Shown: positions 9,758-15,159 of the stretch, one piece after another
Numbering within the stretch: position 1 is the first letter of the stretch
Layout: every line of letters starts with the position of its first letter
Assembly: GCF_001027745.1 (NCBI RefSeq)
Contig: NZ_LECU01000010.1
Location: 62,001 to 126,000, forward strand
DNA: 64,000 nucleotides
Reading direction: 5' to 3'
Origin: Pedobacter sp. BMA
GTDB lineage: Bacteria > Bacteroidota > Bacteroidia > Sphingobacteriales > Sphingobacteriaceae
The notes under the pieces: model-generated
Seen by the model: the letters and a program-made list of their open reading frames with translations, nothing else
Told to the model about the DNA's origin: nothing
Databases searched by the model: none
Program-made: the position numbers and the translations under genes

Positions 9758-9901
9758 TTGTCATAAATTTGAGACAATTAATCTTTTATTTAGAATTGTT
9801 TTAAATCAGGCTATTTATTTAGAATCATTCTTTTTAACTTAGCGCTCGATTTTAGTAATCCAAACACTTCGGCTATCTAGATAGAATTAAACAAAACTCA
9901 A

Positions 9902-11374
9902 ATGAAAAAAATCCTTCTTGGTGCTTTACTGATTGCATCAATGGGCTTAAAGGCTCAGAAAAATACTTTCTTTGATCAGGCTTTTTGGAAAGGGAACACC
10001 GACCTGGCCACGATAAAGGCTGAAATTGAAAAAGGAAATAGCCCTTCTCAGTTGAATCAGATCTCTTTTGATGCTACTTTCTTTGCAATCAGCAATGATG
10101 CCCCTATAGAGTCCATTTTGTTTCTATTGTCTCAACCTGGTAATGGTGTAGATAAGCTTTTGCATGATGGAAGGACCTACTTATTTACCGCTGCCTCAAA
10201 AGGAAATGTGCCGGTGATGGAATACCTTTTAAAAAACGGTGCAAAGGCAAACCTGGAAGACAGTCATGGGTTTTCCCCTTTAACTTTTGCCGCGGCTGCC
10301 GGACAACAGAATACTAAGGTTTATGATTTACTGATTGCAAAAGGTGCCGATTTAAAGAAAGACTTAAACCATGACGGTGCAAATGCATTACTGATCGGGA
10401 TTAGTAATGATAAAGAATTTGCACTGACAAATTATTTTATTTCAAAAGGTTTAAGCCTGAATAGTGTTGACGCCTCTGGAAATACTGCGTTTAACTACGC
10501 AGCAAGAACTGGTAACATTGAATTAATGAATAAATTAATTGCCAAGGGGGTAAAATATAACAATAACGCCGTATTGATGGCTGCACAGGGTGGAAGAGGA
10601 TCTTCAAACGGTTTACCCGTTTTTCAGTATCTGGAAAGTTTGAAACTTAAGCCGTCAGCATTGGGAACAAACGGGGAAAACGCTTTATTCTATATTGTTC
10701 GTAAACCAAAGCAGGAAGAATTGATCAGCTATTTTCTATCCAAAGGCGTAGATGTAAATGAGGCCGATAAGGATGGAAACACCGCCTTCATTAATGCAGC
10801 AGGTTTCACCAGGGATTTATCAGCTTTGGAATTATTATTGAAAAATGTAAAAAACATTAATCAGGTGAATGCGAAGGGCGTGTCTGCATTAGATATGGCC
10901 GTTCGCAGTAACTCTGCTGATGTGGTGAAGTTACTTTTGGATAAAGGGGCTGATTTAAAACTTGCAGATAAAGACGGAAATAATCTGACATATTACCTGA
11001 TGCAGGGCTATTCACCAAGAGGTATGGAAGATTTTAATGCGAAATATAAACTGTTAACCGACAAGGGATTTGACCTTGCTGCTGCACAGCCTAACGGAAA
11101 CAGCTTATACCATATCGCTGTGGCGAAAAATGATTTAGCTTTAGCAAAGTTTATTACGCCGTTAAAGGCAGACGTTAACGTGAAAAACAAAGAAGGCTAT
11201 ACGGCTTTGCATAAGGCAGCGATGACAGCGAAAGATACTGAACTTATGAAATACCTGATCTCTGTTGGTGCCAAAAAAGATGTAACTACCGAATTTAAAG
11301 AAACACCTTTCGACCTGGCCAGTGAAAATGAATACCTGTCAAAAAATAAAATTGCTATAGATTTCTTAAAATAA
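9902..11374 (+). CDS. Secreted ankyrin-repeat protein of the flavin redox operon
   Basis: A 490-residue protein with a cleavable signal (M-K-K-I-L-L-G-A-L-L-I-A-S-M-G-L-K-A-Q). About ten ankyrin repeats follow, recognised by phrases such as G-x-T-x-L/F-x-x-A-A and L-L-x-K-G-A-D/x. The clearest are near residues 88-115, 120-150, 195-215, 290-312, 325-352 and 425-455. No enzymatic motif is present, so it is probably a periplasmic binding scaffold. Only 4 nt separate it from the DUF2271 gene and a further 12 nt separate that from the PepSY-reductase gene, so all three are one operon. Pseudomonas AnkB, a periplasmic ankyrin protein that supports a catalase, is a known precedent for redox partnering. 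Confidence 0.85.
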   Translation: MKKILLGALLIASMGLKAQKNTFFDQAFWKGNTDLATIKAEIEKGNSPSQLNQISFDATFFAISNDAPIESILFLLSQPGNGVDKLLHDGRTYLFTAASKGNVPVMEYLLKNGAKANLEDSHGFSPLTFAAAAGQQNTKVYDLLIAKGADLKKDLNHDGANALLIGISNDKEFALTNYFISKGLSLNSVDASGNTAFNYAARTGNIELMNKLIAKGVKYNNNAVLMAAQGGRGSSNGLPVFQYLESLKLKPSALGTNGENALFYIVRKPKQEELISYFLSKGVDVNEADKDGNTAFINAAGFTRDLSALELLLKNVKNINQVNAKGVSALDMAVRSNSADVVKLLLDKGADLKLADKDGNNLTYYLMQGYSPRGMEDFNAKYKLLTDKGFDLAAAQPNGNSLYHIAVAKNDLALAKFITPLKADVNVKNKEGYTALHKAAMTAKDTELMKYLISVGAKKDVTTEFKETPFDLASENEYLSKNKIAIDFLK

Positions 11375-11378
11375 TAAA

Positions 11379-11864
11379 ATGAATACTTTTTTTAAATTAT
11401 GCCTGGCATTTATGCTGGTGCTTACGTTACCTGATTTTTCTTCTGCACAGAAAACTACCAAGTACAAATGCCTTGTGCAGATGACAAACTACGTAGGCGA
11501 AGGTGCATACATCGTAGTTTCTTTAATAGACCCGAAAGGTACATATGAGAAAACGCTCTATGTGATGGGTTCGGATAAAAAATGGTATCCCGATCTAAAG
11601 GAGTGGCACAAGGCCTTTAAAGCTAAACCGACTAATATCAGTGCAATTACAGGCGCTTCAGTTACGGGCGGCGACAGAAGTGTAACCGTTTTTGAAATCG
11701 ATAATGCTAAACTGAATAAAGGTTACAAGATCCGTTTTGAAACTGCTGTTGAAGACAATAAATATTACGTCAAAGACCTTGAAATTCCACTTACCACTGA
11801 AGGACTTGCTGCTAAGACTGAAGGAACAGGGTACATCAGAAACGTTCGTTTGAGCGCTAATTAA
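11379..11864 (+). CDS. Secreted DUF2271 protein, predicted FMN carrier
   Basis: A 161-residue exported protein (signal ends near S-S-A-Q, residue 24) of the DUF2271 family. Residues 91-94 are T-G-A-S, within the segment I-S-A-I-T-G-A-S-V-T. This fits the [S/T]-G-A-[S/T] acceptor motif used by ApbE to attach FMN through a phosphoester bond, which would make Ser94 the linked residue. DUF2271 proteins have been linked to ApbE-type flavinylation; flavinylation here is inference. It sits between the ankyrin gene and the PepSY-reductase gene, and ApbE is encoded convergently 2.3 kb downstream. It would act as a periplasmic electron carrier. Confidence 0.82.
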   Translation: MNTFFKLCLAFMLVLTLPDFSSAQKTTKYKCLVQMTNYVGEGAYIVVSLIDPKGTYEKTLYVMGSDKKWYPDLKEWHKAFKAKPTNISAITGASVTGGDRSVTVFEIDNAKLNKGYKIRFETAVEDNKYYVKDLEIPLTTEGLAAKTEGTGYIRNVRLSAN

Positions 11865-11876
11865 TAAATATTATAA

Positions 11877-14066
11877 ATGACAATTTCTGTTTGGAGATAT
11901 AGCCACTTAGCACTGGCTATATCTTCTTTTATTTTTATTACCCTGGCTTCAGTAACGGGAATTATCCTCGCTTTTAAGCCTGTTACGGAAAAAACACAAC
12001 CTTACCGTTCTAAAGGTTTCAGCAGCCTTACGGTAGCCGAGGTAATCCCCAATCTGAAGAAATCGTATACCGATATCAGCGATGTAACAATAGATGCCAA
12101 CCAGTTTGTCAGCATTAACGGCACTGATTTAAATGATGAGTCAGGAAAATTTTATGTCGATCCTGTTAGTGGAAAATCCCTTGGGAGGGTAGGTAAAGAA
12201 AACGAATTTTTCAGAACCGTGACAACTTTACACCGCTCTTTGTTTCTACACGAAACCGGTCGTTTTTTTGTAGGTATAACCGCATTTCTGCTATTTCTCA
12301 TTGCAACATCAGGAACTGTACTGATCATTCAGCGTCAGCGAAGCTTTAAAAAGTTTTTTGGAAAAATAGTCAGAGATGGTTTTGCACAATATTACCACGT
12401 AGTCCTCGGTCGGCTATTGCTTATTCCAATTATCATCATTTCCTTGAGCGGAACATTCTTATCGCTGCAAAGATTTGGATTAATCAAGGAACAAAAGATT
12501 ACGCACAAGGTAGATTTAGATGCACTCAAAACTACTCCCGAAAAAAAGCTGCAGGATTTTGAAGTGCTGAAAAATATAAAGCTTGGAGAAGTGCAGTCGA
12601 TTGAGTTTCCTTTTTCAGAAGATGTAGAAGACTATTTCACTATCAAACTTCAGGATAGGGAAATTACGTTAAATCAAATTACAGGAGAGATTTTAACAGA
12701 GCAGGCCTATACAACAGCTACTCTGTTAAATACACTTAGTATGGATTTACATACGGGCAGGACCAATGCGATATGGGCAGTTGTTTTGGCGATCGCTTCG
12801 ATAAATATTTTGTTTTTTATTTATTCTGGTTTCGTCATCATGTGGAAAAGGCGTTCGAACCGGATCAGGAATAAATTTAAACCGGAAGCAGCCGAGTTTA
12901 TTATTCTGGTGGGTTCAGAGAATGGAACCACTTTTAGATTTGCAAAGGCTATACACGATCAGCTTTTGACGAGCGGTAAGCTTTCATTTATGGCCGAACT
13001 AAATGATTATAAGGCATTTGCTCAGGCGAAGCAAATCCTTGTTTTTACGGCCACCTACGGGCAGGGTGATGCGCCAACAAACGCGAAGAAGTTTATCTCG
13101 CAGCTAGAACGTTATCCACAACAACAGTCTGTTAAGTTTTCTGTTGTAGCCTTTGGCTCTCATGCATACCCGGATTTCTGTAAGTTTGGTTATGAGGTGA
13201 ATAATGCACTATCGAAAAAGACCTGGGCAACGCCGATACTTGAAATACATACAGTCAACGATCGGTCACCCGAGGAATTCACCATCTGGGCTAACTCCTG
13301 GGCTTCACATTCTGATATCGAATTAACGGTACTGGATAAATTGCTGGAAACGAAGGCGCCTAAAACACTGAAGTTCATAGTTACCGATAAAATTGTTTCC
13401 GCACATGAAGAGACATCGTTCATAATACGATTAAGGCCTAAGCGTTTAAAGAAATTTGATTCTGGTGATTTGCTGACGATTTATCCTGCAAATGATCATA
13501 GAGAGCGACAGTATTCCATAGGAAAAGTTGGCAAAGAAGTACAGCTCAGCGTTAAACTGCACGAAGGTGGGCTGGGTTCCGGGTTTTTATACAATCTGAA
13601 TGTTGGAGAGTCATTGTCTGCGTCCATTATAAAGAATGCTCATTTCCATTTTCCCCATAAGCGAAAAACAGTGATTATGGTTTCAAATGGAACCGGTATT
13701 GCACCATTTCTGGGGATGCTGAATCAACATGATAGTCAGAAAAATATTCACCTGTATTGTGGTTTCAGGAACCAGCAATCATTCGCTTTGTATGAAAAAA
13801 GTATTAACGCTAAAGCCCTGGAAGCTGCTAAAGTCAATGTTGCATTATCGCGTGAAGGGGATAAAATGTATGTAAAAGATTTACTGGCAAGGGATAGTGA
13901 TTTTGTAGCTCAAACGCTGAGAAATGATGGAGCGGTTATGTTATGCGGCTCCTTAAGCATGCAAAAGGATGTTATCAGCTGGTTGGAACAACTATGCCAG
14001 GAACAGGATAACAAAAGCATTAGTTTCTATCAATCGCGCGGACAGGTATTAATGGATTGTTATTAG
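11877..14066 (+). CDS. PepSY membrane protein fused to flavodoxin/FAD/NAD(P)H reductase
   Basis: A 729-residue fusion. Residues 1-330 are a PepSY-TM region with four membrane helices (about 12-34, 130-151, 175-198, 297-323) and conserved histidines (H119, H125, H174, H292) that could hold haem. Residues about 341-480 are a flavodoxin domain (G-S-E-N-G-T-T phosphate loop, T-A-T-Y-G-Q-G-D). Residues about 495-729 are a ferredoxin-reductase-like module with FAD motif R-Q-Y-S (544-547) and NAD(P) motif N-G-T-G-I-A-P (604-610), ending in an aromatic residue. The order is like cytochrome P450 reductase or the sulfite-reductase flavoprotein. It would take electrons from cytoplasmic NAD(P)H through FAD and FMN to the periplasmic side, with the DUF2271 protein as likely acceptor. 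Confidence 0.9.
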   Translation: MTISVWRYSHLALAISSFIFITLASVTGIILAFKPVTEKTQPYRSKGFSSLTVAEVIPNLKKSYTDISDVTIDANQFVSINGTDLNDESGKFYVDPVSGKSLGRVGKENEFFRTVTTLHRSLFLHETGRFFVGITAFLLFLIATSGTVLIIQRQRSFKKFFGKIVRDGFAQYYHVVLGRLLLIPIIIISLSGTFLSLQRFGLIKEQKITHKVDLDALKTTPEKKLQDFEVLKNIKLGEVQSIEFPFSEDVEDYFTIKLQDREITLNQITGEILTEQAYTTATLLNTLSMDLHTGRTNAIWAVVLAIASINILFFIYSGFVIMWKRRSNRIRNKFKPEAAEFIILVGSENGTTFRFAKAIHDQLLTSGKLSFMAELNDYKAFAQAKQILVFTATYGQGDAPTNAKKFISQLERYPQQQSVKFSVVAFGSHAYPDFCKFGYEVNNALSKKTWATPILEIHTVNDRSPEEFTIWANSWASHSDIELTVLDKLLETKAPKTLKFIVTDKIVSAHEETSFIIRLRPKRLKKFDSGDLLTIYPANDHRERQYSIGKVGKEVQLSVKLHEGGLGSGFLYNLNVGESLSASIIKNAHFHFPHKRKTVIMVSNGTGIAPFLGMLNQHDSQKNIHLYCGFRNQQSFALYEKSINAKALEAAKVNVALSREGDKMYVKDLLARDSDFVAQTLRNDGAVMLCGSLSMQKDVISWLEQLCQEQDNKSISFYQSRGQVLMDCY

Positions 14067-14157
14067 TGTAACCGACCCGATATTTTCCAGATAAACATAA
14101 TATTGTTTAGTTCATGGTGTTAGGGTGGAGGAAAGTGATCTCAATCAGAATTAATGA

Positions 14158-15159
14158 TTACAGATTTTTCTTCCACTTTTCAATCGTCTGGGTGTCAAGG
14201 TTTCCAGACCAGTAAAGCTGGCCATCGTCTCCGAATATCACACAGCTATATTCTGGAAATCCAGCGAGTAATTGGAGACCTTTATCCTTACCAAGCAACA
14301 TGATCGAGGTGCTGAAACCATTTGCTTTCTCAGTATCGGGCCCAAAAACTGTCACGCTGGTTAGTCCTGTTACAGGATATCCTGTTGTGGGATTGATGAT
14401 GTGTGAATACCGTTTTCCATTAAACATCACAAATTTTTCATAGCTGCCAGAAGTTACAACCGCACCATTTTTGATGGGAACAGCAGCAAACAGGCTATCT
14501 TTGTGAAATGGGTTGGTAATTCCGATCATCCATGGTTTGCCGTTGGGTTGTTTACCCCATACACTCATGTCACCGGTAGCATTTACGATACCAGCGTTAA
14601 TGCCTTTTTCTAACATCATTTTTCTACAGCGGTTAGTGGCATAACCTTCTCCTAATGCCCCAAAACCTATCTTCATGCCTTTCTCTTTCAAAAAAATAGT
14701 GCAGTTGATGCTGTCGAGAATGATATTTTTATAATTAACATTTTGTACAGATTTTCTGACTGCATCAGGTGACGGCATTTCAGTCATTGATCCGTCGAAT
14801 TTCCAGATTCGATCCATAGCTGCAAAACTGATGTCGAACGCGCCATTGGTTAGTTTCGATAACTGAATGGCACGCTGCGTAAGTTTGAAAACCTCCCGAT
14901 CCACTTTTACGGGATATTCACCAGCATGCTGATTGACAGCAGAAACTTGTGACGTTGGTTTCCAGTCGGAAATTAAGAATTCAATTCTCGAAATTTCTTC
15001 AATGATGGTATCTATATTGGCTTCCGCAATTAGCTTTGTTTTGGCTACGATAGATATATCAAATCTACCACCCATTAGCATTGTTGTTCTTTTTTTTACA
15101 ACCTGAGCTTGCAATGCGGTGGAGAGGGTCAAGATAAATAATGTGAATTTTAACTTCAA
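14158..15159 (-). CDS. apbE: FAD:protein FMN transferase (ApbE family)
   Basis: A 333-residue exported protein; the signal M-K-L-K-F-T-L-F-I-L-T-L-S-T-A-L-Q-A-Q lacks a lipobox Cys. Family landmarks are M-G-G-R-F-D near residue 29, the segment M-K-I-G-F-G-A-L-G-E-G-Y-A-T near 161-174, N-A-T-G-D-M near 193-198, and the C-terminal S-H-I-I-N-P-T-T-G-Y-P block near 252-262, which contains the metal and flavin contacts. ApbE splits FAD and attaches FMN to Ser/Thr in target proteins. It is convergent with the PepSY-reductase gene. The T-G-A-S-bearing DUF2271 protein is the obvious substrate in this window. Confidence 0.93.
   Translation of the reverse strand: MKLKFTLFILTLSTALQAQVVKKRTTMLMGGRFDISIVAKTKLIAEANIDTIIEEISRIEFLISDWKPTSQVSAVNQHAGEYPVKVDREVFKLTQRAIQLSKLTNGAFDISFAAMDRIWKFDGSMTEMPSPDAVRKSVQNVNYKNIILDSINCTIFLKEKGMKIGFGALGEGYATNRCRKMMLEKGINAGIVNATGDMSVWGKQPNGKPWMIGITNPFHKDSLFAAVPIKNGAVVTSGSYEKFVMFNGKRYSHIINPTTGYPVTGLTSVTVFGPDTEKANGFSTSIMLLGKDKGLQLLAGFPEYSCVIFGDDGQLYWSGNLDTQTIEKWKKNL

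Follow-up and report, generated by a model that had tools for sequence, protein, structure and literature searches.

The question raised by this locus is what a secreted ankyrin-repeat protein is doing in front of the genes for a flavin-based electron-transfer chain, and to which acceptor that chain may deliver its electrons. The locus lies in a 64,000-nucleotide stretch of the genome of Pedobacter sp. BMA, here referred to as the window, and comprises four genes:

9902-11374, + strand, secreted ankyrin-repeat protein of 490 aa (open reading frame list, Pfam, structural model)
11379-11864, + strand, secreted DUF2271 protein of 161 aa, the predicted FMN carrier (open reading frame, Pfam)
11877-14066, + strand, PepSY_TM, flavodoxin and FAD/NAD(P)H reductase modules in a single chain of 729 aa (open reading frame, Pfam)
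14158-15159, - strand (convergent), ApbE, an exported FAD:protein FMN transferase of 333 aa (open reading frame, Pfam)

The open reading frames are found exactly where a preliminary description of the window had placed them, on the same strands and separated by the same gaps of 4 nt (ankyrin/DUF2271) and 12 nt (DUF2271/PepSY reductase). Its domain assignments were borne out by Pfam matches over the curated cut-offs, namely Ank_2 (1.2e-44), DUF2271 (1.7e-38), ApbE (2.8e-77) and, in the 729-aa protein, PepSY_TM (1.3e-33; PF03929, 117.5 bits), Flavodoxin_1 (2.5e-17) and NAD_binding_1 (1.7e-9), while matches to CysJ and P450 reductases identify the reductase half as a diflavin enzyme of that type and account for its FAD part. 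Signal-peptide-like N-termini ending in AQ were recognised by eye in the ankyrin, DUF2271 and ApbE proteins. The ApbE gene apparently starts with TTG (at 15159), an ATT two codons upstream also being possible, and an Rfam scan of the window returned no match.

DUF2271 loci were gathered from Bacteroidota genomes and their gene order was then read, which yielded 79 loci with a stand-alone DUF2271 gene. An ankyrin gene is located directly upstream of DUF2271 and on the same strand in 76 of these, mostly at a distance of 10 nt or less, and the PepSY reductase gene follows DUF2271 in 76 of the 79 (directly in 75), with ApbE encoded no more than five genes further on in 66 (37 on the same strand and 29 convergent as in the window). 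The gene order, whose conservation in relatives the preliminary description had made one of the tests of its reading, recurs in 76 loci and is therefore not due to chance. The three loci without an upstream ankyrin gene are L059, which a contig end truncates and whose genome has ankyrin genes on another contig, L020 and L058; the last of these also lacks the PepSY reductase and adjoins a DUF6607 gene. When a single set of 395 genomes from across the phylum was searched for DUF2271 and with a profile of the ankyrin family, a full-length ankyrin orthologue (top score of 444 bits or more, against no more than 114 bits in the remaining genomes) was present in 28 genomes, and these were exactly the 28 with a stand-alone DUF2271 (Fisher p = 1.6e-43, relatedness between genomes not being removed). 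An internal control for this linkage is provided by 13 loci encoding an ApbE-DUF2271 fusion of approximately 505 aa (L030, L053, L055, L062, L065, L070, L082, L090, L091 and L106-L109), all of which lack an ankyrin gene by the same profile; in the one such locus scanned, a short PepSY_TM_like_2 protein adjoins the fusion. Pairwise distances between ankyrin proteins correlate with those of the PepSY protein (0.88), DUF2271 (0.86) and ApbE (0.775), values from which shared ancestry was not removed. Its exact co-occurrence with stand-alone DUF2271 in the 395 genomes indicates that the ankyrin protein should not be regarded as an optional addition.

The ankyrin family is present in named genomes of Sphingobacteriales, Flavobacteriales and Cytophagales, the nearest named relatives of the window protein being those of Pedobacter sp. 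Leaf250 and P. petrophilus (78-79%). Two ankyrin paralogues adjoin each other divergently in one locus (L103:8504-11741) and in tandem in another genome (G309, contig C129), which suggests duplication of the ankyrin subunit, and a full-length orthologue in a metagenome-assembled genome labelled Williamsia, an actinobacterium (L125), most likely reflects a mis-binned or mislabelled contig. The predicted structure of the window protein (pLDDT 92.4) consists of about 14 helix pairs. No cofactor motif was found in the ankyrin protein and cysteine is mostly absent from its 76 orthologues; the possibility that it is itself a substrate of ApbE was ruled out, as the [ST]GA[ST] motif is missing in 75 of the 76. 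A search of the open literature returned no paper joining ankyrin to PepSY, DUF2271 or Fur, and the secreted ankyrin protein appears to be a near-constant, unrecognised part of the DUF2271/PepSY unit, for which we infer a scaffolding or docking role.

The preliminary description had recognised a redox cluster linked to flavinylation, and this agrees with the intact ApbE motif of the window DUF2271 protein (SAITGAS, residues 88-94), which would carry covalently bound FMN. The [ST]GA[ST] motif is kept in 73 of the 79 DUF2271 orthologues, and the DUF2271 protein of A. ursilacus has been reported to be flavinylated by its own ApbE (PMC8238504). In L042 and L058 the motif is replaced by IVGET, in which the terminal Thr remains, and no ApbE gene is adjacent; ApbE was found somewhere in the genome in all 12 genomes checked. 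L042 retains the ankyrin gene. Comparison of DUF2271 with PDB sequences gave no significant match.

With respect to the electron path, the preliminary description had proposed a route from NAD(P)H via FAD and FMN across the membrane, and the flavin part of this stands: among 76 PepSY reductase orthologues the flavodoxin loop residues, the R544-x-Y-S FAD motif, the CG at 690 and the C-terminal DCY are invariant, and the GTGIAPF motif is mostly so. What it had missed is the membrane step, as four histidines (H10, H119, H174 and H292) are likewise invariant and are expected to be the ligands of two haems, an arrangement for which a PepSY structure has been published (PMC11334425). Because the haem pairing in FoxB and its kin is established (PMC11334425), H10/H174 would by analogy hold the cytosol-side haem and H119/H292 the periplasm-side haem. 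The hydropathy of the protein fits four membrane helices with the reductase on the positive, cytosolic side, and its PepSY part gave no significant match among PDB sequences. The start of its gene contains a further feature:

11893-11926, + strand, 13-bp RNA hairpin followed by a U-rich stretch, terminator-like, at codons 6-17 of the PepSY reductase gene (folding, orthologue comparison)

In 39 of 76 orthologues 12-13 paired positions of this hairpin are kept, a T-A to C-G swap occurs at one pair, and 42% of the sequences exceed 95% of their synonymous-codon shuffles in stability. A role in adjusting how strongly the membrane subunit is expressed is possible, although constraint on the amino acids and common ancestry may contribute to the conservation of the hairpin.

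Upstream of the ankyrin genes a conserved operator was observed which matches the Riemerella Fur box ATTTAGAATTATTCTAAAT, itself supported by gel shift (PMC5609570). In the window the region contains the following elements:

9788-9806, + strand, Fur-box-like site 1, ATTTAGAATTGTTTTAAAT, 2/19 mismatches to the Riemerella Fur box (match with controls)
9817-9835, + strand, Fur-box-like site 2, ATTTAGAATCATTCTTTTT, 4/19 mismatches, ending 66 nt before the ATG (match with controls)
9835-9842, + strand, TAACTTAG, directly behind the operator and conserved (sequence)

Of the two sites, it is site 2 that Pedobacter-type relatives conserve. The Bacteroidota -7 element has the consensus TAnnTTTG, which TAACTTAG resembles, and TAACTTAG may serve as a promoter element; a sigma-70 promoter scan of the window found sites no more commonly than in shuffles. 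A Fur-like box with no more than 3 mismatches is present in 63 of 147 ankyrin upstream regions, as compared to 31 of 415 other upstream regions from the same loci and 0.3% of shuffles. With one locus taken per genus, a site with no more than 4 mismatches occurs in 5 of 19 (p about 0.08), and for this reason control by Fur is proposed solely for the Pedobacter/Mucilaginibacter and Flavobacterium-type lineages, where it would be predicted from these sites; no such box was found in the marine Flavobacteriaceae sampled. The exact motif TTTAGAMTRATTCT has 2 matches in the Pedobacter sp. BMA genome as against 1 in the control, and more permissive scans around the siderophore receptors of that genome gave weak matches at most, so that these scans provide no evidence of a genome-wide regulon.

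The genes surrounding the ankyrin loci bear on the acceptor, which the preliminary description had left open. A siderophore-type TonB receptor is encoded near 29 of 76 ankyrin loci (840 kb of flank), for which the window's own genome offers a rough yardstick of 5 siderophore receptors over the cut-off in 5.04 Mb, with one of the two receptor families tested. Recurring neighbours comprise two TonB receptor families (15 loci each), AraC regulators (13), a 443-aa lipoprotein (12) and an HmuV-type ATPase (8), and one neighbouring TonB receptor exceeds the TIGR01783 cut-off. In six loci (L026, L034, L049, L063, L086 and L113) the genes are ordered TonB receptor, lipoprotein, ankyrin and DUF2271, and in all of these except L026 the PepSY reductase then follows. 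Neither Pfam nor NCBIfam has a model that matches the 443-aa lipoprotein, and no PDB sequence resembles it significantly, while the six best PDB matches to its predicted fold (pLDDT 80.5) are all XusB proteins (E down to 3.2e-18), from B. fragilis, where XusB binds ferrichrome, and from Barnesiella, whose XusB binds siderophores. These putative lipoproteins of about 440 aa (L048:14769-16100, L080:13302-14633 and ten relatives) are, on the predicted fold, likely to represent a new branch of xenosiderophore-binding lipoproteins. On a Spirosoma plasmid, the copy of the locus is accompanied by a divergently oriented gene for a TonB receptor whose annotation is siderophore transport. Neither a TonB receptor nor an XusB-like gene lies beside the window cluster. 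Elsewhere in the window's genome (G000:C9, locus L031:9343-13135) a siderophore TonB receptor that scores above the cut-off of TIGR01783 is directly followed by a stand-alone PepSY_TM protein in a HiuAB-like layout. Taken with the Fur-like sites, the TonB neighbours and the XusB-like lipoprotein point to ferric siderophores as the candidate acceptor.

We consider it probable, though by no means secure, that the locus encodes an iron-repressed reductase of ferric siderophores, or of other periplasmic Fe(III), with an ankyrin docking subunit. As its sequence motifs would have it, the FNR-type domain at the C-terminus of the PepSY reductase binds NAD(P)H, and electrons would pass from the FAD of this domain to the FMN of the cytosolic flavodoxin domain and then from the cytosol-side haem to the periplasm-side haem of the PepSY_TM part. 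The periplasmic haem would reduce the FMN fixed covalently on DUF2271 by ApbE, and FMN-DUF2271 may in turn reduce Fe(III) on siderophores imported by TonB receptors. The resulting Fe(II) would enter via FeoB, which is present in one copy in the window's genome together with Fur-family genes. The ankyrin protein would serve as a dedicated periplasmic docking subunit that keeps FMN-DUF2271 in contact with the PepSY protein, presents the cargo of iron, or does both.

A rather unlikely alternative is that the locus encodes a general periplasmic reductase of Fe(III) or another metal such as copper, giving free Fe(II) or Cu(I), with the TonB neighbours as mere companions in an iron regulon. It would accommodate the Pseudomonadota versions of the core, which adjoin two-component systems and in some cases a VIT1/CCC1-type transporter rather than TonB receptors, and PepSY proteins serve copper supply elsewhere, as reported for CrpH (PMC13038864); the TonB receptor, XusB-like, ankyrin and DUF2271 strings and the XusB fold match nonetheless favour siderophores in Bacteroidota. 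An improbable elaboration makes the ankyrin protein the true electron-delivery subunit, its solenoid of about 14 predicted repeats spanning the periplasm as a relay that binds the FMN carrier with one end and the TonB receptor and siderophore side with the other, so that iron would be reduced close to its entry point; we know of no siderophore reductase that resembles such a relay. Also improbable is an electron supply for oxidative repair (MsrPQ-like) or peroxide defence with the ankyrin protein as client binder: PepSY_TM resembles MsrQ (PMC11334425), an MsrA-like gene was seen by eye near 4 loci and the Spirosoma locus has a glutathione peroxidase, but such neighbours are rare as compared to TonB receptors and none of the nine window genes scanned, between 8384 and 18863, matches the catalytic partner MsrP or a peroxidase. 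That the ankyrin protein is an unrelated, co-transcribed envelope hitch-hiker with no part in electron transfer, as might be supposed from its want of redox motifs, its few cysteines and the generic binding nature of ankyrin repeats, is very improbable in view of its 28/28 association with stand-alone DUF2271 in both directions, its near-invariant position and spacing, a conservation equal to that of the PepSY protein, and its retention in loci with a changed FMN motif or with no ApbE gene next to them (L042).

The siderophore-reductase reading provides a proposed electron acceptor for the flavinylated carrier, a question largely left by the 2021 survey (PMC8238504), connects chains of the DUF2271/PepSY/ApbE type with siderophore use by Bacteroidota, and gives a secreted ankyrin protein a testable partner set beside a flavin-haem electron-transfer chain. 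The core of the locus (DUF2271, the PepSY-flavodoxin-FAD/NAD fusion and ApbE) belongs to the PepSY-like flavinylation systems described earlier, which are widespread also in Pseudomonadota; Meheust et al. (2021) counted 1077 PepSY genes with an NAD-binding domain (PMC8238504). PepSY_TM, DUF2271 with [ST]GA[ST] and ApbE are common to the published systems and the window locus, whereas the main text of the survey does not mention ankyrin, and DUF4198, a frequent partner in the published clusters, is not among the window's flanking genes (PMC8238504). The new elements are the ankyrin subunit, how tightly it is linked, and its position next to uptake genes of the XusB-like kind.

Pseudomonadota homologues of the PepSY reductase are 26-28% identical to it along almost all of its 729 aa and likewise lie beside DUF2271, in clusters of the order small PepSY, DUF2271 and PepSY/flavodoxin/FAD protein with ApbE and/or VIT1 in some. 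They differ in that a small soluble PepSY or cytochrome-type protein occupies the position of the ankyrin protein, directly before DUF2271, and by the presence of two-component regulators and, in some, a VIT1-type transporter. A plasmid search identified a clear ankyrin orthologue in Spirosoma only, the five Pseudomonadota loci among the six annotated plasmid loci having the DUF2271-PepSY reductase core and no ankyrin gene. Conjugative plasmids of Citrobacter (L205) and Marinobacter (L204) carry a very similar DUF2271-PepSY reductase-VIT1 island with a two-component system, and Klebsiella and Salmonella plasmids also hold DUF2271 and PepSY reductase genes.

Among iron systems, XusABC of Bacteroides consists of a TonB receptor, the XusB-type xenosiderophore lipoprotein and XusC, a PepSY siderophore reductase of the inner membrane (PMC13142918); in the six string-bearing loci of relatives the ankyrin-DUF2271-PepSY unit takes the place that XusC has there. 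No DUF2271, ApbE or ankyrin partner is part of the published description of XusC (PMC13142918), whereas the window locus has all three, and a pair similar to XusA/XusB adjoins the cluster only in the six string-bearing loci and not in the window. FoxB and HiuB of Pseudomonas and Caulobacter are PepSY membrane proteins with two His-ligated haem sites, as predicted for the window protein, and HiuB is regulated by Fur and acts in ferric hydroxamate use (PMC13001220). Iron release by itself leaves DUF2271, ApbE and ankyrin unaccounted for, since the descriptions of XusC and FoxB include none of the three. To the FoxB/HiuB plan the window locus adds a cytosolic NAD(P)H reductase of its own, an FMN carrier and the ankyrin protein.
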